A stretch of 64,000 bases of DNA from Argopecten irradians. Taxonomy: Eukaryota; Mollusca; Bivalvia; Pectinida; Pectinidae. Under the pieces are notes generated by a model, which had not been told where the DNA came from, made no database searches, and worked only from the letters and a program-made list of their open reading frames with translations. A program made the position numbers and the translations under genes. Location: contig NC_091135.1 of NCBI RefSeq assembly GCF_041381155.1, forward strand, positions 62,641,567 through 62,705,566, in the 5' to 3' direction. Shown here one piece after another: positions 17,150 to 58,679 of the stretch. Numbering within the stretch: the stretch's first letter is position 1; each line of letters starts with the position of its first letter.

Positions 17150-18350
17150 TTGACTGCAAATTGTATTTTACTGTAGATGTAAGCAATCTCAGATTTCTGA
17201 AAACTGTTGCAGCTATTCGAACTGCATGCACATAAAATGTGAGCTCGTGGCAAGATACATGTGTACCTATTAGGAAAACTTTACAGGACTATAGGGCCTT
17301 CAGCAATAAAGTCAACCAACAAATTAAAATAAATTAAATTCCTCTGCTTCATTCTAAAACTTGGGATTACCTCCCCTAGTTTGGAATTAATGTCAGTTTA
17401 CCTGGTATTATAATGATTGCTCTAATGTTATGTCCCCTGCCTGTTAAATGTAAGGCCTCTCCTCTTCATAGATACTAACTCAAATCAACTACAGTATACA
17501 TGCTAGTCTGGCAGTTAAATCTGTGGGAAAGTCTTGAAATGGCAAGGACACAAGAAAAACAGATGTACAAAATTATTATAATAATATGTTTATTTTGTTT
17601 ATTTCTAAATAAAAGCAGAAACTAATCGCATATATGTATAGGAAGGTAACAATGTCAGACCTTGAAAAAATCTTGAAAAACCCTTCAACCCAAATTGACA
17701 TACACTGCCCTGCAAAGTTTTGTTACACTTGCGTTTTTACAAATATACATAAACTACGGGAATATGTAAACCTTGTTATTGCAGGCATTGGTATTCATTA
17801 TATATCTACTTACCGGGGTATTTATCTTTTCAAACTCATTAATTGCATTTTGGAGAGTTTTCTTAGAGATAAATTGCCAGCAAATTTTAACAAATGTAAC
17901 AGAACTTTTGGAACATCACAGTTCTTTGGATTATTGAGATTTTAGCATATAATCACCAAACCATTGACCTGGAATAAAGGCTAAGGTCATTCAATCGAAA
18001 AGCCATCATGAAAGACTAGGTCTTCACCATTTTCTTTGAAACTACTGAGTAGCTACTCAGTCCATCCTGCCTCTGGCAAGTCTCTTGGTTATTGAGTAAA
18101 GATCATCTGAAACTTTTGATTTTTGATCTTAAGGTGTCCATCAAAAATTTCATAAATATTCCTGCATCTTTTTACTCGCAACATCCTCAGTAAATCATGA
18201 TAGTCAGCCCACACAAAAAGATAATCCACTAATCATCTTCCCTGTAACAAAACAAAAAGATAATCAACTTATCATCTTCCCTGTAACAAAAAAAATATAT
18301 GTACACTGTAGAAGCATACTACTAAAAAATATACCATGTGAAAAAAAATA
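17150..18350. other. AT-rich stretch without recognised genes
   Basis: A 103-codon frame at 17634-17945 looks like chance: hydrophobic, AT-driven and without family resemblance. A short imperfect duplication (ATCATCTTCCCTGTAACAAA) lies at 18230-18290. Nothing else seen. Confidence 0.5.
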
Positions 18351-21300
18351 CAAGAGGCCCAGAGGGCCTGTATCGCTCACCTGGTTTGTAATACCAAGTA
18401 ATGTTCTGAATACAGGTTCATTGTTTCTTTTCTGAAGGAATTGTAATGTTAACCTCTAAATCCCCTATTGGGCCCCACCCCTCCTGCCCCCGGGGGGTCA
18501 GAGCCAAAATTTATGCAAGTTCTGTTCCCCTTCCCCAAAGGATGTTTGTGGCCAAATTTGGTTACATTCCATTCAGAATTCTATGACTAGTAGCGATTTA
18601 AAGGATTTACCTCTATTACCCCTATTGGGCCCCGCCCCTCCTGCCCCCGGGGGACCAGAGCAAAAATTTATGCAAATTCTGTTCCCCTTCCCCCAAGGAT
18701 GTTTGTGGCCAAATTTGGTTACAATCCATGCAGAACTCTATGACTAGTAGCGATTTAAAGGATTTACCTCTATTTCCCCTATTGGGCCCCGCCCCTCCTT
18801 CCCCCGGGGGGTCAGAGTCAAAATTTATACAAGTTCTGTTCCCCTACCCCAAAGGATGTTTGTGGCCAAATTTGGTTACATTCCATGCAGAACTCTATGA
18901 CCAGTAGCAATTTAAAGGATTTACCTCTATTTCCCCTATTGGGCCCCGCCCCTCCTTCCCCCGGGGGGTCAGAGCCAAAATTTATACAAGTTCTGTTCCC
19001 CTTCCCCCAAAGATGTTTATGGCCAAATTTGGTCACAATCCAAGCAAAACTCTAGGACAAGAAGTGATTTATAGGATTTACCTCTATTTCCCCTATTGAG
19101 CCCCACCTGTCCTGAACTCGGGGGGCCAGAGTCAAAATTTATACAAGTTCTGTTCCCCTTCCCCAAAGGATGTTTGTGGCCAAATTTGGTTACAATCTAT
19201 GCAGAACTCTATGACAAGTAGCGATTTAAAGGATTTACCTCTATTTCCCATATTGGGCCCCGCCCCTCCTGCCCCCGGGGGACCAGAGCAAAAATTTATG
19301 CAAGTTCTGTTCCCCTTCCCCAAAGGATGTTTGTGGCCAAATTTGGTTACATTCCATTCAGAATTCTATGACTAGTAGAGATTTAAAGGATTTACCTCTA
19401 TTACCCCTATTGGGCCCCGCCCCTCCTGCCCCCGGGGGACCAGAGCAAAAATTTATGCAAATTCTGTTCCCCTTCCCCCAAGGATGTTTGTGGCCAAATT
19501 TGGTTACAATCCATGCAGAACTCTATGACTAGTAGCGATTTAAAGGATTTACCTCTATTTCCCCTATTGGGCCCCGCCCCTCCTTCCCCCGGGGGGTCAG
19601 AGTCAAAATTTATACAAGTTCTGTTCCCCTACCCCAAAGGATGTTTGTGGCCAAATTTGGTTACATTCCATGCAGAACTCTATGACCAGTAGCAATTTAA
19701 AGGATTTACCTCTATTTCCCCTATTGGGCCCCGCCCCTCCTTCCCCCGGGGGGTCAGAGCAAAAATTTATGCAAATTCTGTTCCCCTTCCCCCAAGGATG
19801 TTTGTGGCTAATTTTGGTTACAATCCATGCAGAACTCTAGGACAAGTAGCGATTTAAAGGATTTACCTCTATTACCCCTATTGGGCCCCGCCCCTCTTGC
19901 CCCCGGGTGGTCAGAGCCAAAATTTATACAAGGTCTGTTCCCCCTCCCCGAATGATATTTGTGGCCAAATTTGGTTACATTCCATTCAGAACTCTATGAC
20001 TAGTAGCGATTTAAATGATTTACCTCTATTTCCCCTATTGGACCCTGCCCCTCCTGCCCCCAGGGGACCAGAGTCAAAATTTATACCAGTTCTGTTCCCC
20101 TTCCCCCAAGGATTTTGTGGCCGAATTTGGTTACATTCCATTCAGAATTCTATGGCTAGTAGCGATTTAAAGGATTTACCTCTATTACCCCTATTGGGCC
20201 CCGCCCCTCCTGCCCCCGGGGGATCAGAGCCATAATTTATACAAGTTCTGTTCCCCTTCCCCCAAGGATGTTTGTGGCCAAATTTGGTTACAATCCATGC
20301 AGAGCTCTATGACAAGTAGCGATTTAAAGGATTTACCTCTATTACCCCCTATTGGGCCCCGCCCCTCCTGCCCCCGGGGGGTCAGAGCCAAAATTTATAC
20401 AAGTTCTGTTCCCCTTCCCCCAAGGATGTTTGTGGCCAAATTTGGTTACATTCCATTCAGAACTCTATGACTTGTAGCGATTTAAAGGATTTACCTCTAT
20501 TTCCCCTTAAAGGCCCCGCACCTCCTGCCCCCGGTGGATCAGAGCCAGAATTTATACAAGTTCTGTTCCCCTTTCCCAAAGGATGTTTGTGGCCAAATTT
20601 GGTTACAATCCATGCAGAACTCTATGACTAGTAGCGATTTAAAGGATTTACCTCTATTTCCCCTATTGGGCCCGACCCCTCCTGCCCATCCCCCGGGGGG
20701 TCAGAGCCAAAATTTATACAAGTTCTGTTCCCCTTCCCCAAAGGATGTTTGTGGCCAAATTTGGTTACATTCCATTCAGAGCTCTATGACAAGTAGCGAT
20801 TTAAATGATTTACCTCTATTTTCCCTATAGGGCCCCGCCCCTCCTGCCCCCGGGGGATCAGAGCCATAATTTATACAAGTTCTGTTCCCCTTCCCCCAAG
20901 GATGTTTGTGGCCAAATTTGGTTACAATCCATGCAGAACTCTATGACTAGTAGCGATTTAAAGGATTTACCTCTATTACCCCTATTGGGCCCCGCCCCTC
21001 CTGCCCCCGGAGGATCAGAGTCAAAATTTAAACAAGTTCTGTTCCCCTTCCCCCAAGGATGTTTGTGGCTAATTTTGGTTACAATCCATGCAGAACTCTA
21101 TGACAAGTAGCGATTTAAAGGATTTACCTCTATTTCCCCTTAAAGGCCCCGCACCTCCTGCCCCCGGTGGATCAGAGCCAGAATTTATACAAGTTCTGTT
21201 CCCCTTTCCCAAAGGATGTTTGTGGCCAAATTTGGTTACAATCCATGCAGAACTCTATGACTAGTAGCGATTTAAAGGATTTACCTCTATTTCCCCTATT

Positions 21301-22262
21301 GGGCCCCGCCCCTCCTTCCCCCGGGGGGTCAGAGTCAAAATTTATACAAGTTCTGTTCCCCTTTCCCAAAGGATGTTTGTGGCCAAATTTGGTTACATTC
21401 CATGCAGAGCTCTATGACAAGTAGCGATTTAAAGGATTTACCTCTATTACCCCTATTGGGCCCCGCCCCTCCTGCCCCCAGGGGGTCAGAGCCAAAATTT
21501 ATACAAGTTCTGTTCCCCCTCCCCCAAGGAGGTTTGTGGTCAAATTTGGTTACAATCCATGCAGAACTCTAGGACAAGTAGCGATTTATACGATTTACCT
21601 CTATTTCCCCTATTGGGCCCTGCCCCTCCTGCCCCCAGGGGGACCAGAGCCAAAATTTAAACAAGTTCTGTTCCCCCTCCCCCAAGGATGTTTGTGGCCG
21701 AATTTGGTTACAATTCATGAAGAGCTCTAGGACAAGTAGCGATTTATAGGATTTACCTCTATTTCCCCTATTGGGCCCTGCCCCTCCTGCCCCCAGGGGA
21801 GGACAGAGCAAAAATTTATACAAGTTCTGTTCCCCCTCCCCCAAGGATGTTTGTGGCCAAATTTGGTTACAATCCATGCAGAACTCTATGACTAGTAGCA
21901 ATTTTAAGGAAATGTTACATGGGGTCATGGTAGCTATCTTTGATTTGGGATCAACCAGAGATCATTTCAGGATCTTTCCATGCAAGTTTCAGCTAAATTA
22001 CACAGGTAGAATTTGAGAAGTTCAAAATGTGTTTTCAATGAGGAGGCTGTGATGGCCATCTTGGATTTCGGATCAACCTGCAAAATGACAACGCATGGTT
22101 GGGACCATGTCGGGATCATTTCATGTATGTTTCAGCTAAATCGCACTGGTAGAACTTGAGAAGAAGTTCAAAATGTGAAAAGTTAACGCACAGCTCATGA
22201 CGGACAGTTGCACAGCGGACGACGAAGGACGAAACATGATGACTATACATGTAGGTCATCCT
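18351..22262 (+). mobile_element. pearl-like element, family B (long copy, about 22 monomers)
   Basis: The 5' hairpin CAAGAGGCCCAGAGGGCC is followed by TGTATCGCTCACCTGG. The core has about 22 monomers of roughly 156 bp with GGGCCCCGCCCCTCCTGCCC, CAAAATTTATACAAGTTCTG and GGATGTTTGTGGCCAAATTT. Blocks near 18580 and 19362 repeat at an offset of about 782 bp (five monomers). The tail (21900-22262) has GGCCATCTTGGATTTCGG, a decayed ACGG-like tract and a final weak hairpin. Frames of about 60-120 codons on both strands are shadows of the monomer. Confidence 0.85.
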
Positions 22263-22434
22263 GATCCTTAAATATTTTTTTTTAAAATCAATTTGTGCAA
22301 GAACCTGCATGAATAAAAAAAATTTAATTTGATATAGAAGTTGTCCCAAATATCTATGAAAAAGTTGTATGACATCGAAAATTAAAACTTCTTTCATAAT
22401 TTAAAATAAACAACAATACATCTGCAAAATACAA

Positions 22435-25400
22435 TTAGGATGGCCGTATGGGTGATACACAGATAGAATACTGTTCTATAATTGATTGATAGACTGATAC
22501 TTTAGGATGGCCGTATGGGTGATACACAGATAGAATACTGATCTAGAATTGATTGATAGACTGATACTTTAGGATGGCCATATGGGTGATACACAGATAG
22601 AATACTGATCTAGAATTGATTGATAGACTGATACTTTAGGATGGCCATATGGATGATACACAGATAGAATATTGTTCTAGAATTGATTGATAGACTGATA
22701 CTTTAGGATGGCCATATGGATGATACACAGATAGAATACTGATCTAGAATTGATTGATAGACTGATACTTTAGGATGGCCGTATGGGTAATACACAGATA
22801 CAATACTAGAATTGATTGATAAACTGATACTTTAGGATGGCCGTATGGGTGATACACAGATAGAATACTAGAATTGATTGATAGACTGATACTTTAGGAT
22901 GGCCGTATGGGTGATACACAGATACAATACTAGAATTGATTGATAGACTGATACTTTAGGATGGCCATATGGATGATACACATATAGAATATTGTTCTAG
23001 AATTGATTGATAGACTGATACTTTAGGATGGCCATATGGATGATACACAGATAGATAACTGATCTAGAATTGATTGATAGACTAATAATTTAGGATGGCC
23101 ATATGGATGATACACAGATAGAATACTGATCTAGAATTGATTGATAGACTGATACTTTAGGATGGCCATATGGGTGATACACAGATAGAATACTGATCTA
23201 GAATTGATTGATAGACTGATACTTTAGGATGGCCATATGGATGATACACAGATAGAATACTGATCTAGAATTGATTGATAGACTGATACTTTAGGATGGC
23301 CATATGGGTGATACACAGATAGAATACTGATCTAGAATTGATTGATAGACTGATACTTTAGGATGGCCATATGGGTGATACACAGATAGATTACTAGAAT
23401 TGATTGATAGACTATTACTTTAGGATGGCCATTTGGGTGATACACAGATACAATACTAGAATTGATTGATAAACTGATACTTTAGGATGGCCGTATGGGT
23501 GATACACAGATACAATACTAGAATTGATTGATAGACTGATACTTTAGGATGGCCGTATTGGTGATACACAGATAGAATACTGATCCAGAATTGATTGATA
23601 GACTGATACTTTAGGATGGCCGTATGGGTGATACACAGATAGAATACTGATCTAGAATTGATTGATAGACTAACTTTAGGATGGCCATATGGATGATACA
23701 CAGATAGAATATTGTTCAGAATTGATTGATAGACTGATACTTTAGGATGGCCGTATGGTGATACACAGATAGAATACAGTTCTAGAATTAATTGATAGAC
23801 TGATACTTTAGGATGGCCATATGGATGATACACAGATAGAATACTAGAATTGATTGATAGACTAATACTTTAGGATGGCCGTATGGGTGATATACAGATA
23901 GATTACTGATCTAGAATTGATTGATAGACTGATACTTTCGGATGGCCGTATGGGTGATACAAAGATAGAATACTGATCTAGAATTGATTGATAGACTGAT
24001 ACTTTAGGATGGCCATATGGGTGATACACAGATAGAATACTGATCTAGAATTGATTGATAGACTGATACTTTAGGATGGCCGTATGGGTGATATACAGAT
24101 AGATTACTGATCTAGAATTGATTGATAGACTGATACTTTTGGATGGCCGTATGGGTGATACAAAGATAGAATATTGTTCTAGAATTGATTGATAGACTGA
24201 TACTTTAGGATGGCCGTATGGGTGATACACAGATAGATTACTGATCTAGAATTGATTGATAGACTGATACTTTCGGATGGCCGTATGGATGATACACAGA
24301 TAGAATACTAGAATTAATTGATAGACTAATACTTTCGGATGGCCGTATGGGTGATACAAAGATAGAATATTGTTCTAGAATTGATTGATAGACTGATACT
24401 TTAGGATGGCCATATGGGTGATACACAGATAGATTACTGATCTAGAATTGATTGATAGACTGATACTTTAGGATGGCCATATGGATGATACACAGATAGA
24501 ATACTAGAATTGATTGATAGACTGATACTTTAGGATGGCCATATGGGTGATACACAGATAGAATACTGATCTAGAATTGATTGATAGACTGATACTTTAG
24601 GATGGCCATATGGGTGATACACAGATAGAATACTGTTCTAGAATTGATTGATAGACTGATACTTTAGGATGGCCATATGGGTGATACACAGATAGAATAC
24701 TGTTCTAGAATTGATTGATAGACTGATACTTTAAGATGGCCGTTTGGGTGATACACAGATAGAATACTGTTCTAGAATTGATTGATAGACTGATACTTTA
24801 GGATGGCCGTTTGGGTGATACACAGATAGAATACTGTTCTAGAATTGATTGATAGACTGATACTTTAGGATGGCCGTTTGGGTGATACACAGATAGAATA
24901 CTGTTCTAGAATTGATTGATAGACTGATACTTAAGGATGGCCGTATGGGTGATACACAGATAGAATACTAGAATTGATTGATAGACTATTACTTTAGGAT
25001 GGCCATTTGGGTGATACACAGATACAATACTAGAATTGATTGATAGACTGATACTTTAGGATGGCCGTATGGGTGATACACAGATAGAATACTGTTCTAT
25101 AATTGATTGATAGACTGATACTTTAGGATGGCCGTATGGGTGATACACAGATAGAATACTGATCCAGAATTGATTGATAGACTGATACTTTAGGATGGCC
25201 GTATGGGTGATATACAGATAGATTACTGATCTAGAATTGATTGATAGACTGATACTTTCGGATGGCCGTATGGGTGATACAAAGATAGAATACTGATCTA
25301 GAATTGATTGATAGACTGATACTTTAGGATGGCCATATGGGTGATACACAGATAGAATACTGATCTAGAATTGATTGATAGACTGATACTTTCGGATGGC

Positions 25401-28226
25401 CGTATGGGTGATACAAAGATAGAATATTGTTCTAGAATTGATTGATAGACTGATACTTTAGGATGGCCGTATGGGTGATACACAGATAGATTACTGATCT
25501 AGAATTGATTGATAGATTGATACTTTCGGATGGCCGTATGGATGATCCACAGATAGAATACTCTAGAATTGATTGATAGACTAATACTTTAGGATGGCCG
25601 TATGGGTGATACACAGATAGAATATTGTTCTAGAATTGATTGATAGACTGATACTTTAGGATGGCCATATGGGTGATACACAGATAGATTACTGATCTAG
25701 AATTGATTGATAGACTGATACTTTAGGATGGCCATATGGATGATACACAGATAGAATACTGATCTAGAATTGATTGATAGACTGATACTTTAGGATGGCC
25801 ATATGGGTGATACACAGATAGAATACTGATCTAGAATTGATTGATAGACTGATACTTTAGGATGGCCATATGGGTGATACACAGATAGAATACTGATCTA
25901 GAATTGATTGATAGACTGATACTTTAGGATGGCCATATGGGTGATACACAGATAGAATACTGATCTAGAATTGATTGATAGACTGATACTTTAGGATGGC
26001 CATATGGGTGATACACAGATAGAATACTGTTCTAGAATTGATTGATAGACTGATACTTTAAGATGGCCGTATGTTGGGTGATACACAGATAGAATACTGT
26101 TCTAGAATTGATTGATAGACTGATACTTTAGGATGGCCGTTTGGGTGATACACAGATAGAATACTGTTCTAGAATTGATTGATAGACTGATACTTTAGGA
26201 TGGCCGTTTGGGTGATACACAGATAGAATACTGTTCTAGAATTGATTGATAGACTGATACTTTAGGATGGCCGTTTGGGTGATACACAGATAGAATACTG
26301 TTCTAGAATTGATTGATAGACTGATACTTAAGGATGGCCGTATGGGTGATACACAGATAGAATACTAGAATTGATTGATAGACTATTACTTTAGGATGGC
26401 CATTTGGGTGATACACAGATACAATACTAGAATTGATTGATAGACTGATACTTTAGGATGGCCGTATGGGTGATACACAGATAGAATACTGTTCTATAAT
26501 TGATTGATAGACTGATACTTTAGGATGGCTGTATGGGTGATACACAGATAGAATACTGATCCAGAATTGATTGATAGACTGATACTTTAGGATGGCCGTT
26601 TGGGTGATACACAGATAGAATATGATCTAGAATTGATTGATAGACTGATACTTTAGGATGGCCGTATGGGTGATACACAGATACAATACTAGAATTGATT
26701 GATAGACTGATACTTTAGGATGGCCGTATGGGTGATACACAGATACAATACTAGAATTGATTGATAAACTGATACTTTAGGATGGCCGTATGGGTGATAC
26801 ACAGATACAATACTAGAATTGATTGATAGACAGATACTTTAGGATGGCCATATGGATGATACACAGATAGAATATTGTTCTAGAATTGATTGATAGACTG
26901 ATACTTTAGGATGGCCATATGGATGATACACAGATAGAATACTGATCTAGAATTGATTGATAGACTGATACTTTAGGATGGCCGTATGGGTAATACACAG
27001 ATACAATACTAGAATTGATTGATAGACTGATACTTTAGGATGGCCGTATGGGTGATACACAGATACAATACTAGAATTGATTGATAGACTGATACTTTAG
27101 GATGGCCGTATGGGTGATACACAGATACAATACTAGAATTGATTGATAGACTGATACTTTAGGATGGCCATATGGATGATACACATATAGAATATTGTTC
27201 TAGAATTGATTGATAGACTGATACTTTAGGATGGCCATATGGATGATACACAGATAGATAACTGATCTAGAATTGATTGATAGACTAATAATTTAGGATG
27301 GCCATATGGATGATACACAGATAGAATACTGATCTAGAATTGATTGATAGACTGATACTTTAGGATGGCCATATGGGTGATACACAGATAGAATACTGAT
27401 CTAGAATTGATTGATAGACTGATACTTTAGGATGGCCATATGGATGATACACAGATAGAATACTGATCTAGAATTGATTGATAGACTGATACTTTAGGAT
27501 GGCCATATGGGTGATACACAGATAGAATACTGATCTAGAATTGATTGATAGACTGATACTTTAGGATGGCCATATGGGTGATACACAGATAGATTACTAG
27601 AATTGATTGATAGACTATTACTTTAGGATGGCCATATGGGTGATACACAGATAGATTACTAGAATTGATTGATAGACTATTACTTTAGGATGGCCATTTG
27701 GGTGATACACAGATAGAATACTAGAATTGATTGATAGACTGATACTTTAGGATGGCCGTTTGGGTGATACACAGATAGAATACTGTTCTAGAATTGATTG
27801 ATAGACTAATACTTTAGGATGGCTGTATGGGTGATACACAGATAGAATATTGTTCTAGAATTGATTGATAGACTAATACTTTAGGATGGCCGTTTGGGTG
27901 ATACACAGATAGAATACTGTTCTAGAATTGATTGATAGACTGATACTTTAGGATGGCCATATGGATGATACACAGATAGAATACTAGAATTGATTGATAG
28001 ACTGATACTTTAGGATAGTCATATGGGTGATACACAAATAGAATACTAGAATTGATTGATAGACTGATACTTTAGGATGGCCGTATGGGTGATACACAGA
28101 TAGAATATTGATCTAGAATTGATTGATAGACTGATACTTTAGGATAGCCGTATGGGTGATACAAAGATAGAATACTGTCCTAGAATTGATTGATAGACTG
28201 ATACTTTAGGATGACCATACTAATAC
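22435..28226. repeat. 62/67-bp satellite array (about 85-90 copies)
   Basis: Unit: AGGATGGCCGTATGGGTGAT, ACACAGATAGAATACTGATC, TAGAATTGATTGATAGACTG, ATACTTT (67 bp). A 62-bp form lacks the TGATC before TAGAATTG. Variants (CGT/CAT, GGGTG/GGATG, GATC/GTTC) recur in blocks: 23881 onwards resembles 25201 onwards (offset about 1320), and 22781 onwards resembles 26980 onwards (offset about 4.2 kb). This indicates higher-order amplification. Minus-strand frames of 60-125 codons are repeat artefacts. The right edge abuts the last BRCT-gene exon seen. Confidence 0.95.
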
Positions 28227-31200
28227 TTTGCCTTTTATAAAACTTGTTGCTTTCTTTCTTGTCCTTTCTGTTGTCTCTATCATGACTGTCCCTCCCCAAG
28301 CCGAGGTCCTCCTGAGTATCTTCTGAGTATGAAGCAAACCCAACCTTTGGACACTTGTTAATTGCTCTCTCCCACTCTTCATAATGGATACATTGTATAC
28401 CTGTATCAATGCACAAGATACATAATATCAATAATCATTATTTTTACCCTAGTAAAATTTATAGTACTATAAATACTAAAATCCAAGATCACGGGTGGTC
28501 AGCCAACTTTTGACTGATTTGTCCTAAAATGCAATATGCTTAACTTGGGCCCTTAGAAAACCTACATAAGAAATTTGAGACAGATCCCTTCAGTACTTTC
28601 TCATAAATAGGGGTAACAATCTTAATCAACTACAAAAATCCATGATGACTGCCTGGCAGCCATATTGTTATTTCGATCAATCTCAAAATCAGCATGACAC
28701 TCCTAGGGCCCCAGGGGAACCTACATATGAAATTTGAGACAGATCCCTTTAGTACATATACTTTCTGAGAAATAGCGGTAACAAACATCAACTGCCAAAA
28801 TCCAAGATGGCTGCCTGGCAACCATTTTGTTTTTCAGATCAGTCTCATGACACTCCTAAAGCCCCAGGGGAACCTTCATATGAAATTTAAGACAGATCCC
28901 TTGAGTAATTTCTGAGAAATAGCAGTAACAAACATCAACTTCCAAAATCCAAGATGGCTGCCTGGCGGCCATGATCAGTCTCAAAATTAGCATGACACTC
29001 CTAGGGCCCCAGGGGAACCTTCATATGAAATTTGAAACAGATCTCTTCAGTACTTTCTGAGAAATAGGGGTAACAAACATCAACTGCCAAAATTAAAGAT
29101 GGATACCTGGCGGTCATATTGTTTTTACGATCAGTCTGAAAATCAGCATGACACTCCTAGGAAACAATGAGAACCTACATAAGAAATTCTAGACAGATCC
29201 CTTCAGTACTTTCTGAGAAATAGTGGTAACAAACATCAAATGCCAAAATCCAAGATGGCTGCCTGGCAGCCATATTGTTTTTCCGATCAGTCTCAAAATC
29301 AGCATGACGATCCTAGGGCCCCAGGGGCACCCACATTTGAAATCAAACTCAATCAAACAATTTTTGCTAGTTTCATATCACCAACTTGATCATTTAAGTA
29401 ATAAAAAACAACCATACAAAATTAAATGTGTTGATACCTAGTTTATAAGCAAAATTTTCAGTATCTGCCTTGTGAGTCGTGTCACAAGGTCCTAGTATAA
29501 CAAAGTCTGTGGCACTTGATAATTTCTTGTCAACAGTACAGCCATGCATTACAGCTTTAGACGCCAATCTGTGAAGGTCATCCTGATGTAATCCTGTGAA
29601 CAACACTCGGCGATCATTCATATCCAATGTGGGAACTACAACAAAAAATACATCTTAAGGCTGCAACTTTAGCTTTTCAAAAATCATTAATTACAAAATA
29701 GTAAGAAAGGATTTGTTTAGAGGGGGGGGAGAGAGCAGTCATTGGTGGAGTGGGGATATAAGTGGCATATGAGAGGATAAGTTAACAGGAGCATTATAGG
29801 ATAATAAGTTGAAGGGAAATAAAAGGAGATGAGTTCAGGAAGGCTTACTGGATTGAAAGTTAAAGGGAATCATATGCTTATTGGAAGACAACCAAGCAGG
29901 TTATTAGAGGCTAAGTTTATGGGGTTCTTTGTAGATAAACTGTATGGCTTATTGGTAGAGAAAATTCTCTGCTTATTGATGATTATATATGGTAATTTTT
30001 TGCAATATTACTTTTGGGGCTTATCAGAACCTTTATTTCGAGAAGTTAATTGGGAATTAAATTTATGAGCATAATTGAAAAAGTAATGGGAAATCAATAG
30101 AGGAAAACCTTAGAAAGCTAATTTGAGAATCAGAAAAATAACAAGTACTCATTGTAATGGACACCATTACATAGTCCCCCAAACGCATCCCTAATTGCAA
30201 CAAATCAAGAATGCAGTTGCACAGTGTATATGAACATCTTGGAAGAAATTTGATGTACTTTAATATATGAATTCAGGTTCTCCTAAAATGTACATAACTA
30301 AATAACTTGGTGATCATGACCCAGGACCAGGCCATGCCTTGTACCTGTGTATAGTGCGCACCCCAACTTTTCACTTGAAAATTTATGAAAAAAAGTGCGC
30401 ACTATACACGCAATAATACGGTAATACAAGGCTATTTTCAGAGAAATTGATTTGGCAGTTACCATGACTGTATGGCATCCCTTAAAATTTTAAGTTAAAA
30501 CCCCCATTTACCAATTTTTAATGAATTGCTGAGGAAAAATTGAAAACAGGAAGTTGGCCCAGCGACAATCTTTTAAAAATTTTATCATATTGATCAGCAT
30601 TCCTTCATTCCCCTATATACTATTTTTTATTGAAATCAGAGACCAAAATATAAACACAGGAAGTTAGCCCAGCGGCCATCTTGGAATAGCAAAATCTTTA
30701 AGAAAACGTTTGCATGTTGTTCGCCATCCCTAAATAATCCTATAGACTAATTTTCATTGAGATTGGAGATTGAAACCTGAAAACAGGAAGTGGGCCAGCG
30801 GCCATCTTGGATACCAAAAATTCTTTACAAAAATGTTTGTGTGTTGTTCGCGATCCCTTAAAACTCCTTTAGACCAATTTTCATTGAGATAGAAGACCGA
30901 AACCTGGAAACAGGAAGTGGGCCAGCGGCCATCTTGTAATACTAAAATCTTTACGAAAATGTTTTCATGTTGTTCGCCATCCCTTAAAACCCCTTTAGAC
31001 CAATTTTTATTGAGATAGAAGACTAAAACCTGAAAACAGGAAGTGGTCCAGCAGCCATCTTGGAATACCAAAAATCTTCACGAAAATGTTTTCATGATGT
31101 TCGCCATCCCTTAAAACCCCTGTAGACCAATTTTCATTGAGATAGAAGACCGAAACCTGGAAACAGGAAGTGGGCCAGCAGCCATCTTGGAATACCAAAA

Positions 31201-34200
31201 ATCTTCACGAAAATGTTTTCATGATGTTCGCCATCCCTTAAAACCCCTGTAGACCAATTTTCATTGAGATAGAAGACTAAAACCTGAAAACATGAAGTGG
31301 TCCAGCAGCCATCTTGGAATACCAAAAATCTTCACGAAAATGTTTTCATGATGTTCGCCATCCCTTAAAACCCCTGTAGACCAATTTTCATTGAGATAGA
31401 AGTCTGAAACCTGAAAACAGAAAGTGGGCCCTGGCCATCTTGGAATACCAAAAATCTTCACGAAAATGTTTTCTTGATGTTCGCCATCCCTTAAAACCCC
31501 TTTAGACCAATTTTCATTGAGATTGGAGACCGAAACCTGAAAACAGGAAATGGGCCCTGGCGGCCATCTTGGACTTCCAGTCCGGGAAAAAAAGCATCTA
31601 TGCATCACCCCACACCCTATAGAGTCTGTCTACCAAGTTTCATGATCATCGGCCCAGTAGATTCTGAAAGCTGTGGAAACCCGCGCGGCGGAAGAAAGTG
31701 GAAGAAATAAGAATAAAAATGATAATAATAACTAACTTACATTATATATAATTATAATAATAAAAATACTGCGGTATCTTCATAATTCCAATTGTTCTGA
31801 AATCAGAACGATTTTTAAGTGTTCTAGCAAAATTAATGTTGTGTAACTTACTTACTTTTGAAGAAAATCGGCTTTTTGTGTCCCTATTTTCCTGATGCAA
31901 ATATTCACTGTTGCCATACTTGGAAGGTCTTTCTCACTACGGTGTTTATTCCTGTTGAAAACAAGCGTTCTGACGCCCTTCGCGGGTTAAGTTCATTTTA
32001 CGAATAAAGTCAACAAAAGAAGCGGAACAATATCAAGAAACAATGCATTTTTAGCTCTAATATCGACATCAGTCGGGCACAGAACTGGATACTGGATAAT
32101 AAAATTTCCTGTAATAGTTGAAATAGGAAAATATTACGATGTCAGTAAATAGATGTTTAATTTCTTTTGATTCAATTTCTAAATTTGATGACTTATACCG
32201 AACATTCCTGAGTGACTTCACTTTTCACAGAATGAATGAAACTGCAGTCAGTCCCGCCAAACAGTGACGTCACAATATCGGAATGACGTCACTTACATAT
32301 TTCCCACGGTAGTAAAAAGGAGTACACACTCATTCGAATGCATCTTTTCTTGATCATCAAAGAAACATTTCGCTTTGAGCGTGTAAATAACAGGCAACTT
32401 GCTTTCGTTTTGAATACCATCTTCTGTATATATAATGAAAAAGTTGCAGGATAAACAGAATACACGGTCACTATCTTACAATACAAGCTTTATTTTGGTG
32501 TAGACAGGGAAAACCGAGATTACTCGGCAAAACCTCCTCATCTCATCTCATCGTACAAATGACAGCAGCATCGATATTAATAATAGCATAATAAAAATGT
32601 CCAACGTTGGAAAAATTGCAAGTACATTCATTATTTACATAAACCAGTAATAAGAATAATCATTTATTTCATCTAGACTAAATAATTTGCAAATCCCATA
32701 CACCGCCTGCAATGAGACGTCCTTGGCTTATCGCTACACACGATGCTCTCGATCATGGTCTTATTATTATGTACATTTTCTTGGGATGTTAAATCTAGAT
32801 GTATCTGTTTTCGACAGTTAAATTTCTATGAACATGTGTATTACAAACAGTCTCAACTGCTATTCCGAGACCTTAAGATGCAATCTTGGTCACCTCAGCC
32901 AAAACACAGGGGCATCCAAATTTTGACAGAAACGTTTACTAGTAATTTGATATGTATGGCATTTAAAAGTATTGGAGACCTTTTGATATGCACGTGTATA
33001 TCTTGATGTTTCAAGTGGCTGCCCTCATTATTTTTTGTGAAAAATGAATTATACATATATGTTATAAAACTCAGTAAACTTTTTTATTGTCATTATTGTT
33101 ATATATTAATTACACTGTATGTGATATTTAAACGAAAACACAGATTTTACCTAAGAAGCCAATGATATATATAATGTAAGTATCGGTTAGCTTGTAATTA
33201 ACTTACATTATATATAATAATAATAATAAAAATACTGTAAGAGGTATCTTCATAATTCCAATTGTTCTGAAATCAGAACGATTTTTAAAGTGTTCCAGCA
33301 AAATTAATGTAGTGTTACTTACTTACTTTTGGAGAAAATCGACTTTTTGTGTCCCTATTTCCCTGATGCAAATATGCACTTTTGCCCCACTTGGAAGGTC
33401 TTTTTCACTACGGTGTTTATTCCCTTGAAAACAAGCGTTCTGACGCCCTTCGCGGGTTAAGTTCATTTTACGAATTTAAAGTCAACAAAAGAAGCGGAAC
33501 AATATCAAGAAACGATGCATTTTCAGCTCTAATATCGACATTAGTCGGGCACAGAACTCGATACCAGATAATAAGAATTTCCTGTAATAGTTGCAATAGG
33601 AAAATATTACGATGTCAGTAAATAGATGTTTAATTTCTTTCGTTTCATTCAATTTCTAAATTTGATGATATGATCCCTAACATTCCAGTGACGTCACTTC
33701 TGGTAGGAGTGAATGAAACAGCAGTCAGTCCAGCCAATCAGTGACGTCACAATCACCAGAATGATGACGCTTACATATTTCCCACGGTAGTAAAAAGGAG
33801 TACACACTCATTTGGTTTAGTGAATGTATCTTTTCTTGATCATCAAAGAAGCGTTTCGCTTTGAGCGAAATCGTGTAAATAACAGGCAATTAGCTTTAGT
33901 TTTGAATGCCATCTTCTGTATGTATAATGAAAAAGTTGCAGGATAAACAGAATACACGGTCAATATCTTACAATACAAGTTTTATTTTGATGTTGACAGG
34001 GAAAACCGAGATGACTCGGCAAAACCTCCTCATCTCATCTCATCGCACAAACGATAGCCGTATCGCTATTAATTATAGCAAAACAAAAAAGTCCTACGTT
34101 GAAAATATTGCAAGTACATTCATTATTTACATAAACCAGTAATTAGAATAATCATTTATTTCATCTAGACAAAACAATTTGCAAATCCCATACACCGCCT

Positions 34201-37200
34201 GCAAGGAGACGTCCTTGGCCTATCGCTACCCACGATGCTCTCGATAGTTGTATTATATTATGTAACTTTTCATGGGATATTAAATCTAGATATATCTGTT
34301 TTCGACAGTTAACTTTCTATGAACATGTGTAAAACAAGCAGTCTCAGCTGCTATTCCGAGACCGTAAAATGCAATCTTGGTCACCTCAGTCAAAACACAG
34401 AGGCAGGCAAATTATGACAGAAATGTTTACTAGTAATTTGATATGTATGTCATTAAAAGTATTGGAGACCTTTTGATATGCAAGTGGCTGCCCGTATTAT
34501 TTTTTGTGAAAAATGAATTATACATATATGTAATAAAATTAGGTTAGCTTTTTGATTGTCATTATTGTTATATACACTGTATGTGATATTTAAACAAAAA
34601 CATATATTTTACCTTAGAAGCCAATGATATATATATGTAAGTATCGGTTGGCTTGTAATAATAATAACAATAAGAAGAAGAAACGGAGCAAAAACATTAT
34701 GTCCCCACTTCGTTTAGGGGACATAAATATCGGCTACATCAATAGAGTTTGGTTTGATTTGCTTAGTTTCATGTCCTATCAACAGCCAAGGTCATGTAAG
34801 GATGTTTTAGATTCGATGGTGGAGGAATACCAAAGTACCCAGAGAAAACCACCAACCAGCAGTCAGTACCAGGCAACTGCACCACATGGGATTCAAACTT
34901 GCAACCCAGAGGTGGAGTAGACTCCTGGAAGCCTGAATTTCGGTGGGTACTATCAACAATACTTACCAGACTCTGGTGGGCCTGAATTTATGTGGGTACT
35001 ATCAACAATACTTACCAGACTCTGGTGGGCCTGAATTTATGTGGGTACTATCAACAATTCTTACCAGACTCTGGGGGGCCTGAATTTCTGTAGGTACTAT
35101 CAACAATACTTACCAGACTCTGGTGGGCCTGAATTTATGTGGGTACTATCAACAATACTTACCAGACTCTGGGGGGCCTGAATTTCTTTGGGTACTATCA
35201 ACAATACTTACCAGACTCTGGGGGCCTGAATTTCTGTGGGTACTATCAACAATACTTACCAGACTCTGGGGGGCCTGAATTTATGTGGGTATTATCATCA
35301 ATACTTTCCAGACTCTGGGGGGAGGGGGGCCTGACTTTCTGTGGGTACTATCATCAATACTTACCAGACTCTGGGGGGCTGGAACTAACATCCACAACAT
35401 TTGTCTGTTTTAATGGTTTCTTTTCCTTCATCAATATGCCAAGCATCACTAAAAATAAAGTGAAGAATTATCAAGTGGAATGTAATTTTCCCCCAAAATT
35501 ATCATTTATTTTTAATAGTCTTAAATACAGTGAACCAACAAGTGAAAACAATAACATGACTGAAAGACTAAATATCAAACAAGAGGCCCAGAGGGCCTGT
35601 ATCGCTCACCTGGTTTGTAATGCCAAGTAATGTTCTGAATACAAGTTCATTGTTTCTTTTTCTGAAGGAATTTGAATATTTACATCTAACTCTCCTATTG
35701 GGCCCCACCCCTCCTGCCCCCAGGGGGTCAGAGCCAAAATTTATACAAGTTCTGTTCCCCTTCACCAAAGGATGTTTGTGGCCAAATTTGGTCACAATCC
35801 ATGCAGAACTCGAGCTCTAGGACATAAGTAGCGATTTTATAGGATTTACCTCAAATTCCCCTATTGGGCCCCCCTCCTGCCCACGGGGGGTCAGAGCCAA
35901 AATTTATACAAGTTCTGTTCCCCTTCCCCCAAGGACGTTTGTGACCAAATTTGGTTAAAATCCATGCAGAACTCTAGGACAAGTAGCAATTTATAGGATT
36001 TACCTCTAATTCCCCTATTGGGGGGCCCCCCTCCTGCCCCCGGGGGGTCAGAGCCAAAATTTATACAAGTTCTGTTCCCCTTCTCCCAAAGATGTTTGTG
36101 GCCAAATTTGGTCACAATCCATGAAGAACTCTAGGACAAGTAGCGATTTATAGGATTTGCCTCTATTCCCCTAATGGGCCCCGCCCCTCCTGCCCCTGGA
36201 GGGTCAGAGCCAAAATTTATACAAGTTCTGTTCCCCTTTCCCCAAGGATATTTGTGGCCAAATTTGGTTACAATCCATGCAGAACTCTAGGACAAGTAGC
36301 GATTTATAGGATTTACCTCTATTTTCCATATTGAGCCCCGCCCCTCCTTCCCCCGGAGGGTCAGAGCCAAAATTTATACAAGTTCTGTTCCCCTTCCCCT
36401 ATGGATGTTTGTGGCCAAATTTGGTCACAATCCATGCAGAACTCTAGGACAAGTAGCGATTTATAGGATTTACCTCTATTTTCCATATTGAGCCCCGCCC
36501 CTCCTTCCCCCGGGGTGTCAGAGCCAAAATTTATACAAGTTTTGTTCCCCTTCCCCCAAGGATGTTTGTGGCCAAATTTGGTTAAAATCCATGCAGAACT
36601 CTAGGACAAGTAGCGATTTATAGGATTTGCCTCTATTTCCCCTAATGGGCCCTGTCCCTCCTGCCCCTGGAGGGTCAGAGCCAAACTTTATACAAGTTCT
36701 GTTCCCCTTCCCCCAAGGATGTTTGTGGCCAAATTTGGTCACAATCCACGGAGGACTCTAGGATAAGTAGCAATTTATAGGATTTGCCTCTATTTCCCCT
36801 ATTGGGCCCCGCCCCTCCTTCCTCCGGGGGGTCAGAGCCAAAATTTATACAAGTTCTGTTCCCATTCCCCCAAGGATGTTTGTGGCCGAATTTGGTCACA
36901 ATCCATGCAGAACTCTAGGACAAGTAGCAATTTATAGGATTTACCTCTATTTTCCCTATTGGGCCCCGCCCCTCCTGCCCCTGGGGAGTCAGAGCCTGTG
37001 GCCAAATTTGGTTACAATCCATGCAGAACTCTATGACTAGTAGCGATTTAAAGGAAATGTTGACGAACAATGGACGGACGCCGGACGCCGCGACATGACA
37101 TAAGCTCACCAGCCCTTCGGGCCAGGTGAGCTAAAAATCTAATTATCTGAAAATGTATCTCGAGGAGGACTCTATAAACTTATCTATAATTGTAATTATA

Positions 37201-38314
37201 AGTTTCATACAATACATACTGTCGTCTTTCTCTTTCTGGTTATATCTAAAGTTTGTACTTGCATTATAGTGAGATACATGTACTTAGTTTAAAATTTCTT
37301 TCTGAATTGAGACACTGTGTATAGTTTTATATGCTAATTAACATAAAACATAACCAACCAAGTCAAGTAGAAAGTCTCCAAAAATATAATGTTATATTTA
37401 ACACCCTTACAATTGTTTCCATCAGTTTACCACAACCGAACTGCTTTAAACAGAAAATTGAAAAAGAAAACACTTTTTTCTTCCAAGATTTTATAATGCA
37501 TACCATTTTCACTGTAGTCTCTCTTGCGACCTCGTGACCCTGTGATAGATTTAAAGCGTTTCATTGAACGCTGTACATCCCTTTCTGTAATAAGTGTTGA
37601 CTCCAGTGGCAGATTGGCCGCCTTTTTAGCTGCAAGTAATGCAAGCTGGTCCGCATGGTCATTACCGTCCACTCCAGCACCTGAGGGTATCCAGTCTATA
37701 GCTACATGGACTCCCTGAGACAAGATGTCCTCTCTCTTCTTCCTTATCCTTCCAACAACCTCTCTGAGTTCCTTGTTAACTTTTTCATACAAGCATCCTT
37801 TAATCACTTTTTGGTTATCACAAAAAATCTGAATTTTTTCCAGTTCTAAAAGATTAACATTTTTACTAATATGAGACAAAGCGTTCTCTATTGCAGCATA
37901 TTCAGCTTTTTCAACTGAGGACCGAGGGGAAACAGGGACAGACAACTCTGCTACTTTAGTCTTGTCATTCTGGTATATTACAATGCCACTACCACACGGT
38001 CCAAGCCTTCCTTTAGAGTCTAAAGTAGAACCATCTGTATACACTATCAGTGCTTTATCAGGTAAAGATAATAATACTTTCTTATACATTTCTTTTGCAA
38101 GTTCAACTTTCTCATCTGTCCTCTCCCCATACCAGTAATCATTGACAGGTTTTGAATATCCTCGTGAAATGTTACACCTATAGCAACAAACACTGACTGC
38201 AGACACAGAACTTGGTTGAAAGCCGTCACTAAGAAATAGCACATTTGTGGTTTCGGACCTCCTTAACATCTGGTAGAATACCCTAAAGGGTATCTGTCTA
38301 TGTAACTTAAACAT
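28227..38314 (-). CDS. RNase H type I domain + BRCT domain protein (4 exons, 3' end open)
   Basis: Assembled exons: 37504-38323 (ATG at 38314), 35365-35448, 29438-29635 and 28227-28400. Each has AG/GT borders and every junction is phase 1, giving about 422 codons. Residues 1-19 (MFKLHRQIPFRVFYQMLRR) are basic with no acids, as in a mitochondrial presequence. Residues about 88-228 are an RNase H fold with all four acidic positions: D94 (VYTDGS), E138 (KAEYAAIENAL), D166 (FCDNQKVI) and D222 (GNDHADQLA). Such enzymes cut RNA in RNA-DNA hybrids. A short linker ends SSSPPES. Then comes a BRCT-like domain: RRVLFTGLHQDDLHRLASKA, TDFVILGP, KLGIQCIHYEEW with the conserved late Trp, followed by a charged tail (DSHDRDNRKDKKESNK). 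BRCT domains bind phosphoproteins or DNA in repair. RNase H may derive from a non-LTR retrotransposon. Further 5' UTR or 3' exons are possible; the joining is inferred, not seen in a transcript. Confidence 0.6.
28480..29345 (+). mobile_element. pearl-like family A core, ends not recognised
   Basis: About five to six divergent monomers with CCAAGATGGCTGCCTGGC, ATCAGTCTCAAAATCAGCAT, GACACTCCTAGGGCCCCAGG and TTTCTGAGAAATAG. Neither hairpin end is present, so this is an old or truncated copy. It occupies the intron between the two BRCT exons. Confidence 0.7.
29636..30300. other. intron sequence without recognised features
   Basis: Includes a G-rich run (GAGGGGGGGGAGAGAG at about 29720) and purine-rich degenerate repeats (GGATAAGTTAACAGGAG, AGATGAGTTCAGGAAGG). 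The plus-strand frame at 29829-30068 looks like chance. Confidence 0.45.
30340..30412. repeat. strong inverted repeat (hairpin)
   Basis: TGTGTATAGTGCGCACC on the left pairs with GTGCGCACTATACACGC on the right across about 35 nt that also fold (TTTTCA/TGAAAA). Likely a terminal fragment or MITE remnant. Confidence 0.6.
30440..31715. repeat. 127-bp tandem repeat core (family D)
   Basis: About nine units with a period of 127 bp: GAAAACAGGAAGTGGGCC, AGCGGCCATCTTGG, AATACCAAAAATCTTCACGA, TGTTCGCCATCCCTTAAAAC, CCAATTTTCATTGAGAT. The right end changes to CACCCCACACCCTATAGAGT and a CGCGCGGCGG stretch, as if an element terminus. The TTTTCA-type frames on the minus strand are repeat shadows. Intronic to the RNase H-BRCT gene. 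Confidence 0.85.
31734..33199. repeat. 1.47-kb tandem duplication, copy 1
   Basis: Copy 1 of a direct duplication (copy 2 at 33200-34665). Landmarks in order: AACTTACATTATATATA, TTCTGAAATCAGAACG, CCCTTCGCGGGTTAAGTTC, two TGACGTCA sites, CCCACGGTAGTAAAAAGG, TTTCTTGATCATCAAAG, GACGTCCTTGGCTTATCGC. Frames are not conserved between copies, so it is probably non-coding. Confidence 0.85.
32265..32291. promoter_or_regulatory. paired CRE-like palindromes (copy 1)
   Basis: TGACGTCA occurs at 32265-32272 and 32284-32291, 19 bp apart. This octamer is the full CREB/ATF consensus. A CCGCCAAACAG stretch precedes them. In copy 2 the matching region has TGACGTCA at 33689 and 33742, with a CCAAT box (GCCAATCAG) just before the second. 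Regulatory activity is inferred from motif alone. Confidence 0.45.
33200..34665. repeat. 1.47-kb tandem duplication, copy 2
   Basis: Direct repeat of 31734-33199 with many substitutions and small indels, for example GCGGTATC versus GTAAGAGGTATC and a CATTTGGTTTAG insertion near the ATCATCAAAG landmark. The divergence shows it is not a recent assembly artefact. Two full CRE palindromes lie at 33689-33696 and 33742-33749. Confidence 0.85.
34735..34920 (-). mobile_element. tRNA-derived SINE (MetaSINE-like tail)
   Basis: Read on the minus strand: B-box-like GCAAGTTTGAATCCCATG, then GGTTTTCTCTGGGTACTTTG and CCTCCACC, then CTTGGCTGTTGATAGGACAT and GAAACTAAG. The last part matches the common bivalve SINE end (...TAGGACGTNAAAC...) also seen at 62117. 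The plus-strand 98-codon frame over it is an artefact. Confidence 0.65.
34925..35372. repeat. 48-bp minisatellite made from a splice donor
   Basis: About nine copies of a unit that on the minus strand reads CCCCCCAGAGTCTG|GTAAGTATTG, then TTGATAGTACCCACAGAAAT and TCAGG. The rightmost unit coincides with the 3' end and 5' splice site of the linker exon (35365-35448) of the RNase H-BRCT gene. Each copy therefore repeats the last exon bases plus the GTAAGT donor in the following intron. Confidence 0.9.
35580..37134 (+). mobile_element. pearl-like element, family B (complete copy)
   Basis: 5' hairpin CAAGAGGCCCAGAGGGCC, GCTCACCTGG; about eight monomers of 157 bp (GGGCCCCGCCCCTCCTGCCC...GATGTTTGTGGCCAAATTTG); a short GGACGGACGCCGGACG tract; 3' hairpin AGCTCACC-AGCCCTTCGGGCC-AGGTGAGCT, then AAAAA. 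The two ends can pair (TCACCTGG with CCAGGTGA). Lies in the intron between the RNase H exon and the linker exon. Confidence 0.88.
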
Positions 38315-38391
38315 CCTCTGGATCTGTTTGATAGAAGAAACAAAAAATAGAAACAGAAAATCTGTCAAATTACAGACATAACAATGCCTTA

Positions 38392-42043: not shown

Positions 42044-55364
<13,321 letters not shown>

Positions 55365-56929: not shown

Positions 56930-58640
56930 AGAAAGACATTGTGGATACACCAATAACCCAGGGTATTATACAGACAGACATCGTGTATACACCAATACCC
57001 TAGGGTCACACAAACAGACATCGTGGATACACCAATAACCCAGGGTCACACAAACAGACATCGTGGATACACCAATAATCCAGGGTCACACAGACAGACA
57101 TCGTGGATACACCAATAACCCAGGGTTACAAACAGACATGGATACAACAATATCCCAGGGTCACACAGACAGACATCGTGGTACACCAATAACCCAGGGT
57201 CACACAGACAGACATTGTGGATACACCCATATATACCCAGGGTCACACAGACAGACATCGTAGACACACCAATAACCCAGGGTCACACAGTGGATACACC
57301 AATAACCCAGGGTCACACAGTCAGACATCGTTGATATAACAATGCCCCAGGGTCACACAGAGAGATACCAATAACCCAGGGTCACATAGACAAACATCGT
57401 GGATACACCAATACCCCAGGGTCACACAGACAGACATCGTGGATACACCAATACCCCAGGGTCACACAGACAGACATCGTGGATACACCAATAATCCAGG
57501 GTTACACAGACAGACATCGTGAATACAACAATACCCCAGGGTCTTACACAGACAGATATTGTGTTTACACCAACAACCCAGGGTCACACAGACAGACATA
57601 GTAGAGACACCAATCACCCAGGGTCACACAGACAGACATCGTGGAGACACCAACAACCCAGGGTCATACAGACAGACATCATTGAAACACCAATAACCCA
57701 GGGTCACACAGACAGACATCGTGGAGACACCAATTACCCAGGGTCACACAGACGGACATTGTATATAAACCAATAACCCAGGGTCACACAGACAGACATC
57801 GTGGATAAACCAATACCCCAGGGTCACACAGACCGACATCGCGGATACACCAATAGATACACCAGGGTCACACAGACAATACATCGTGGATACACCAATA
57901 ACCCAAGGTCATACAGACATACATCGTGGATACACTTATACCCCAGGGCCACACAGACAGACATCGTGGATACACCAATACCCCAGGGTCACACAGACAG
58001 ACATCGTGGATACACCAATACCCCAGGGTCACACAGACAGACATCGTGGATACAACAATACCCCAGGGTCATACAGACACAGACATCGTGAATACAACAA
58101 TACCCCAGGGTCTTACACAGACAGACATGTGTGTTTACACCAACAACCCAGGTCACACAGACAGACATCGTAGAGACACCAATAACCCAGGGTCACACAG
58201 ACCGACATCGTGGATACACCAATAATCCAGGGTTACACAGAGAGACATCGTGAATACAACAATACCCCAGGGTCTTACACAGACAGACATTGTGTTTACA
58301 CCAACAACCCATGGTCACACAGATAGACATTGTAGATACACCAATACGCCAGGGTCACACAGACAGACATTGTGGATACACCAATACCCCAGGGTCACAC
58401 AGATAGACATCGTGGATACATCAATAGCCCAGGGTCATACAGACAGACATCATGGATACACCAACAACCCAGGGTCACACAGACAGGACATTGTGTATAC
58501 ATCAATAACCCAGGGTCAAACAGACAGACATCATGGATACACCAATAACCCATGGTAACACAGACAGGACATTGTGCATACGCCAATACCCCAGGGTCAC
58601 AGACAGACATCGTGGATACACCAATAGCCCAATGCAGTGC
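56930..58640. repeat. 40-bp minisatellite
   Basis: About 40 copies of a 40-bp unit: GTGGATACACCAATAACCCA, GGGTCACACAGACAGACATC. Variants alternate AATAACCCAG and AATACCCCAG. Because 40 is not a multiple of three, frames over it shift continually and are artefacts. Confidence 0.96.
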
Positions 58641-58679
58641 GCAGAGAGATGTTGTGAATACAACACATAAGCATAATTG

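Follow-up and report, generated by a model that had tools for sequence, protein, structure and literature searches.

The RNase H-BRCT gene and its exons

The stretch of DNA considered here (the window) comprises 64,000 nucleotides (nt) of the scallop Argopecten irradians (assembly GCF_041381155.1, contig NC_091135.1, positions 62,641,567 to 62,705,566), and its minus strand bears a gene whose predicted product joins an RNase H domain to a BRCT domain. As read from its sequence, the protein begins with a presequence-like N-terminus, followed by an RNase HI-fold domain, a post-RNase H segment and a linker; one BRCT domain comes next, and the tail is rich in lysine and arginine. That the RNase H-BRCT fusion is a genuine gene of A. 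irradians is confirmed by its conservation, at the level of predicted proteins, in several scallop genera. The architecture is a new one, composed of known domains, and its function is proposed below by inference; no such fusion was found in the literature surveyed by title and abstract start. The features of the gene (positions are those of the window; P0001 is the Argopecten protein of the database, isoform X2) are the following.

37504..38314, minus strand: coding exon 1, with the ATG, the presequence-like N-terminus (residues 1-59), all of the RNase H domain (residues 87-228) and the greater part of the post-RNase H segment
38138..38314, minus strand: the N-terminal 59 residues, resembling a mitochondrial presequence (6 R, 2 K, 3 D+E), with R-G-Y-S at residue 51
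37631..38056, minus strand: RNase H domain (PF00075, residues 87-228) with D94, E138, D166 and D222 present and G212 at the position of the catalytic His
35365..35448, minus strand: coding exon 2, 84 nt, with the end of the post-RNase H segment and a portion of the variable linker
34931..35379, minus strand: tandem array of a 49-bp unit, overlapping the end of exon 2 and including its splice donor
29438..29635, minus strand: coding exon 3, 198 nt (66 codons), both ends in phase 1, with the N-terminal part of BRCT
28232..28400, minus strand: coding exon 4, with the C-terminal part of BRCT (W374) and the basic tail, terminating at a GC donor
18229..18241, minus strand: coding exon 5, 13 nt, which completes an Arg codon and adds EDD and the stop; the sole pattern match, in agreement with P0001

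Exon 1, 811 nt long, lies in a stop-to-stop frame of 325 amino acids (aa; 38404-37427). On inspection, introns 1-3 begin with GT and end in AG, and each junction between exons 1-4 splits a codon behind its first base, which bears out the three phase 1 junctions with good donors and acceptors proposed in an earlier reading of this DNA made from its letters alone (the sequence-only reading). The frame of about 422 codons given there was correct in the joining of exons 1-4 but not at its end, since exon 4 does not reach the TAG at 28180; the GC donor and exon 5 instead bring the protein to 424 aa. Exon 5 was placed from the C-terminus of P0001 (KFYKR-EDD), which fits the GC donor at 28231, and 18241-18229 is the single site within minus-strand positions 28230-1 that fits the expected pattern of AG followed by the codons. 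The five exon lengths total 424 aa, and subtraction of the 66 codons of exon 3 leaves 358 aa, exactly the length of the database isoform. The last coding exon is thus preceded by a GC-AG intron of about 10 kb (18242-28231), inside which lies a tandem array of 18.6 copies of a 67-bp unit (27009-28219).

P0001 (358 aa), the representative of a two-member cluster and the sole Argopecten protein examined, supports the join of exons 1 and 2 and splices exon 2 directly to exon 4. Since exon 3 has 198 nt and is in phase 1 at both ends, its skipping retains the frame but loses most of BRCT. Another peculiarity of this region is that the context of the exon 2 donor, CAGAGTCTGGTAAG, occurs in eight copies in the 49-bp array, the genuine donor counted; the donor itself has therefore been duplicated in series.

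Orthologues and the two domains

Homologues, each annotated as an 'uncharacterized protein', were retrieved from A. irradians, Pecten maximus (LOC117337197), Mizuhopecten yessoensis (LOC110461886) and Ylistrum balloti (LOC132553218). The Argopecten database protein is 100% identical over the aligned part, and the three other orthologues (446-458 aa) share 52-64% identity with the query over 89-97% of its length. Both domains are present in three of the four retrieved proteins, the exception being Argopecten isoform X2, and in Pecten, Mizuhopecten and Ylistrum the RNase H precedes BRCT as in the window, which is the order that the sequence-only reading proposed to look for in other molluscs. 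The same join in three other genera shows that the fusion did not arise from the picking of exons in a single genome.

Regional identities, calculated as means of the six pairs formed by the four scallop species, divide the protein sharply. They reach 66% for RNase H, 67% for BRCT, 67% for the helix preceding RNase H and 83% for the 49 residues that follow RNase H, and drop to 41% in the N-terminus and to 30% in both the linker and the tail. Judged by these sequences, BRCT is conserved as strictly as RNase H, and two conserved domains connected by a freely changing linker are typical of a functional two-domain protein. The best-conserved part of the whole protein is the post-RNase H segment (37504-37627 and 35365-35448; about residues 230-278, LPLESTLITERDVQRSM...), which lies under none of the Pfam matches listed for the five proteins (the window protein and P0001-P0004).

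These data bear on two explanations that would deprive the fusion of meaning. False merging of two adjacent genes by the gene predictor could be suspected on account of introns of about 2 and 6 kb containing tandem repeats, and of the nature of the sequences compared, which are predictions; it is rendered very improbable by the same join predicted in three other genera with both sides equally conserved, by P0001, in which Argopecten itself shows exon 2 spliced to the second of the BRCT exons, and by the agreement of all phases. A pseudogene, or a chance assembly of open frames, is hardly credible: isoform X2 skips exon 3, so BRCT may be dispensable in Argopecten, but the frames are open, the splice sites intact, and both orthologues and domain-specific conservation exist. 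Chance, or a chimera of gene prediction, was ruled out by the orthologues and the domain-wise conservation.

When the conceptual protein was searched with the PF00075 hidden Markov model, the match exceeded the curated cut-off of 25.8 bits (44.9 bits, E 1.7e-11, residues 87-228), and P0001-P0004 exceeded it as well, at 40.7-56 bits, so that all five proteins lie above it; the RNase H domain of the sequence-only reading is thereby upheld. The phage-protein family phrog_531 (RNase H) matched the three proteins scanned, with a best E of 1.3e-21. The only Pfam matches of exon 1 were RNase_H and RVT_3, and Pfam scans of the five proteins gave no reverse-transcriptase family beyond RVT_3. Among NCBIfam models, those of RNase HI were matched far under their cut-offs, and no BRCT model was matched. 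Human RNase H1 was the best match among solved structures by sequence (scallop profile, E 1.6e-5) and also the first Foldseek match (E 1.1e-4) of an AlphaFold model of the whole protein, a model of low confidence with a mean predicted local distance difference test (pLDDT) of 39.3. The carboxylates D94, E138, D166 and D222 (DEDD) are invariant in the five aligned rows, which represent four species. Thus, a type I RNase H with all four acidic residues in one exon, as originally proposed, stands with respect to the DEDD set; the catalytic His has been lost in all four species. The basic protrusion (handle), a segment present in bacterial RNase HI, is also missing from the four scallop proteins in an alignment judged by eye.

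The assignment of BRCT, proposed at first as a BRCT-like domain formed by two exons, depended on how PF00533 was applied. On the joined window protein the score of 19.5 bits (E 0.0012) remained under the cut-off of 21.3. With the segment scanned alone (87 aa, boundaries set by the analyst) the cut-off was passed in three of the four species, the scores being 23.7 bits for the window (E 5.7e-5), 25.6 for Pecten and 22.6 for Ylistrum, with Mizuhopecten below the cut-off at 15.6. None of six shuffles of the window segment matched any family. The Mizuhopecten segment matched a twin-BRCT model at E 0.0045, also under the cut-off of that model, and phrog_2561, described as 'DNA ligase', matched the BRCT part of two of three proteins (E 2.5e-3 and 2.2e-4). 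A search of PDB sequences with the BRCT profile gave one match, a cystathionine-beta-synthase chain at E 0.93, and the single BRCT sequence gave three chains, all of Nbs1, at a non-significant E of 0.25-0.28. The AlphaFold model of the domain is poor (mean pLDDT 49.6); its elements follow the order strand-helix-strand-strand-helix-helix, and Foldseek with this model returned nothing at E <=0.001, ferredoxin-like folds being ranked first.

Three residues of the BRCT segment, T14, G15 and K56, do not vary among the four species. According to one structural study, Thr166, Gly167, Arg174, Lys208 and Lys209 of RFC1 contact a 5' overhang and its phosphate (PMC9359705), and the distance from Thr to Lys is +42 in the scallop BRCT and RFC1 alike, a correspondence of spacing. 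The pocket of the XRCC1 BRCT instead binds poly(ADP-ribose) (PMC6334254), and for this reason the ligand of the scallop domain is not nameable from sequence.

Genomic copies, distribution and origin

A search of the 846-Mb genome with the RNase H exon returned the exon itself and ten other places (E <=0.01), the latter with at best 33% identity; no second close copy was found, and the BRCT exons matched only themselves (two places). Three of the ten places were inspected, one being a frame with the YADD motif of reverse transcriptases and two containing RNase H frames of repeated elements.

The hybrid-binding domain, PF01693, has one match in the genome, on contig C6 and separate from the window gene. 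It is followed 3', on the same strand and in order, by three frames with catalytic pieces of RNase H1 (E 0.017, 0.039 and 4e-7), the last of which carries the catalytic His. This locus (L018, G000:C6:13732500-13742400), in which ordinary RNase H1 catalytic pieces adjoin the PF01693 match, offers a useful control for the window gene. This genome thus agrees with the sequence-only reading, in which animal RNase H1 was said to carry a hybrid-binding domain in place of BRCT. The canonical enzyme is encoded by a multi-exon locus elsewhere, so the window gene exists in addition to it. PF01693 was absent, up to E 1, from the window protein and P0001-P0004. Membership of the window gene in canonical RNase H1 was ruled out by the lack of this domain together with the separate canonical locus.

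Protein searches, by a method that needs shared words of five residues and applies fixed length limits, revealed no homologue of the fusion beyond the four scallops, and distant orthologues in other bivalves could escape searches of this kind. The sole non-scallop protein returned was P0005 (E 1.4e-4), an element-like RNase H without BRCT, which by eye is a fungal RNase H of the LINE (long interspersed nuclear element) type. A bacterial or viral source was also considered and rejected. Scans with the RNase H profile, made through two short peptide patterns, produced 586 pattern matches in prokaryotic contigs and 157 in viral contigs, none of which was confirmed. In tblastn searches with the Mizuhopecten protein only weak RNase H matches appeared in phages (283 records; best E among the matches listed, 7e-3) and plasmids (39 records; best E among the matches listed, 2e-5), and no phage or plasmid record spanned 80% of the query.

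A separate problem is where the RNase H domain came from. One possibility, to which we give somewhat limited weight, is that the exon was exapted from a LINE (a non-LTR retrotransposon) and joined to the pair of BRCT exons in the scallop stem lineage; this concerns origin and is compatible with both nuclease and non-nuclease function. The complete domain resides in one exon, while the catalytic pieces of canonical RNase H1 are spread over at least three frames, kilobases apart. The best other genomic match of exon 1 is the frame with the YADD motif (33%, E 1.8e-5), the domain lacks the basic protrusion, and it shares a W-[IV]-P-S motif with scallop element frames. Moreover, P0005 had the top score (43.4 bits) when 13 RNases H were scored against the scallop profile. 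In that same set, however, haloarchaeal (35.9 and 31.1 bits) and Rhizobium (35.0 bits) RNase HI outscored six scallop element copies (25.5-28.4), and the GPCG motif of the scallop domain resembles RNase HI. In both trees the neighbours of the family are two haloarchaeal proteins and not the elements (IQ-TREE ultrafast bootstrap 82, FastTree local support 0.93); the trees were built from 15 sequences and 176 columns, the grouping involves very long branches, and we do not trust this neighbourhood as an indication of origin. Judged by sequence, the RNase H may have been recruited from a LINE by domestication, or it may descend from an ancient domain resembling RNase HI.

Two other parts of the window may be mentioned. 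The end of an open frame at 44526-44921 (plus strand) resembles, by eye, the start of mitochondrial aspartate aminotransferase (GOT2); Pfam, applied to this piece alone, gave no supporting match. Long repetitive open frames with short tandem units occupy both strands at 57769-61029, which is probably satellite-like DNA.

Possible function and comparison with known systems

RNase H enzymes generally reach hybrids through a hybrid-binding domain or a polymerase, and phosphates on repair proteins or at broken DNA are what BRCT domains recognise. A natural polypeptide containing both makes a link between hybrid removal and recognition of breaks or nicks testable in one protein. Overall, the findings are best explained by a scallop-lineage RNase H-BRCT protein that probably acts as a nuclease of RNA-DNA hybrids, or as an attenuated one. 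Most likely it would be a specialised RNase HI-like enzyme, in which BRCT and the basic tail might anchor a substrate or partner and so replace both the hybrid-binding domain and the basic protrusion of RNase H1. Such an RNase H, having neither the His nor the protrusion, is expected to need some other anchor, for which BRCT and the tail are the candidates. BRCT would most likely dock at a DNA end or nick bearing a 5' phosphate, or on a phosphoprotein located there; docking on phosphate is proposed because the Thr-Gly pair and the Lys occur at the spacing of the RFC1 phosphate pocket. A role at R-loops or in repair had already been offered in the sequence-only reading, as a guess. Possible substrates are RNA primers or remnants of R-loops near such ends, in mitochondria or the nucleus, and skipping of exon 3 would provide a form without a working BRCT.

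A number of observations weigh against this interpretation. Where the E. coli enzyme has its catalytic His124 and the human one His264, there is G in Argopecten, D in Pecten, N in Mizuhopecten and D in Ylistrum; in the alignments the His is kept in the human, scallop element, P0005, three bacterial and one phage rows and is absent also from two haloarchaeal rows. The H124A substitution in E. coli RNase H is described as causing a substantial loss of activity (PMC8900815), and the scallop protein may therefore be weakly active. The cut-off for BRCT was reached in whole-protein Pfam scans by none of the four proteins bearing exon 3, and P0001 is devoid of this exon, retaining just the last BRCT exon. 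No BRCT occurred among the 50 rows listed by either structure comparison made with the model of mean pLDDT 49.6, and the fold was thus not confirmed by structure; at this pLDDT we count both comparisons as uninformative. The pocket Arg of RFC1, at +8 from Thr, is H or Y in scallops, with an Arg at +9 in three of the four. All proteins compared are predictions from genomes. As to localisation, a mitochondrial address is putative, the N-terminus being presequence-like by composition and motif, and an R-x-[FYL]-[AS] motif being present in just two of the four species.

Loss of the catalytic His in all four species and of the protrusion, together with the fast overall evolution of the protein (52-64% identity to other scallop genera), could also mean that its RNase H is a non-cleaving, hybrid-binding pseudo-nuclease and its BRCT a protein-protein adaptor, the whole forming a scaffold at hybrids. 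We regard this as doubtful. The four metal-binding carboxylates, invariant in four species, would be hard to explain in the absence of metal-dependent chemistry, and Halobacterium RNase HI is active although devoid of the catalytic His (PMC9719913).

A more specific form of the nuclease interpretation may be put forward, though tentatively: a second, independent RNase H of scallops, devoid of the His, would be devoted to hybrids at ends or nicks, with BRCT in place of the hybrid-binding domain and with exon skipping as a switch. If this were true, the protein would represent a lineage-specific enzyme of genome maintenance, possibly a mitochondrial one. Its restriction to scallops in these searches points to a possible recently made gene of animal genome maintenance, and the protein raises the question of how an RNase HI manages without its His.

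The protein may be compared with several known systems. Eukaryotic RNase H1, a partly mitochondrial enzyme composed of the hybrid-binding domain, a linker and RNase H, shares with it the RNase HI fold, the DEDD carboxylates, a presequence-like N-terminus and an accessory module on a linker; the scallop protein differs in having no PF01693, protrusion or His, and its accessory domain is a C-terminal BRCT. In the absence of both the His and the protrusion it resembles the archaeal-type RNase HI (Halobacterium, as described in PMC9719913, and the haloarchaeal proteins L010 and L011). With L010 and L011, its neighbours in the small trees, it has in common the GP-G and AEY motifs, but the identity is only 23-28% and the loop before the last Asp is different. 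LINE RNase H is similarly compact and free of the protrusion, and scallop element frames are 30-33% identical to the window domain in local alignments and 22-27% in trimmed tree columns; in contrast to LINEs, the scallop gene has no reverse transcriptase, is spliced, was found in one copy and has lost the His. Among single BRCT domains (RFC1, PARP1, XRCC1 and phrog_2561, the last matched by two of three proteins), RFC1 has the Thr-Gly in strand 1 and a Lys at +42 as the scallop domain does; overall similarity is weak (Nbs1 the best solved chain in the single-sequence search, at E 0.25), and the scallop BRCT differs in being attached to an RNase H.

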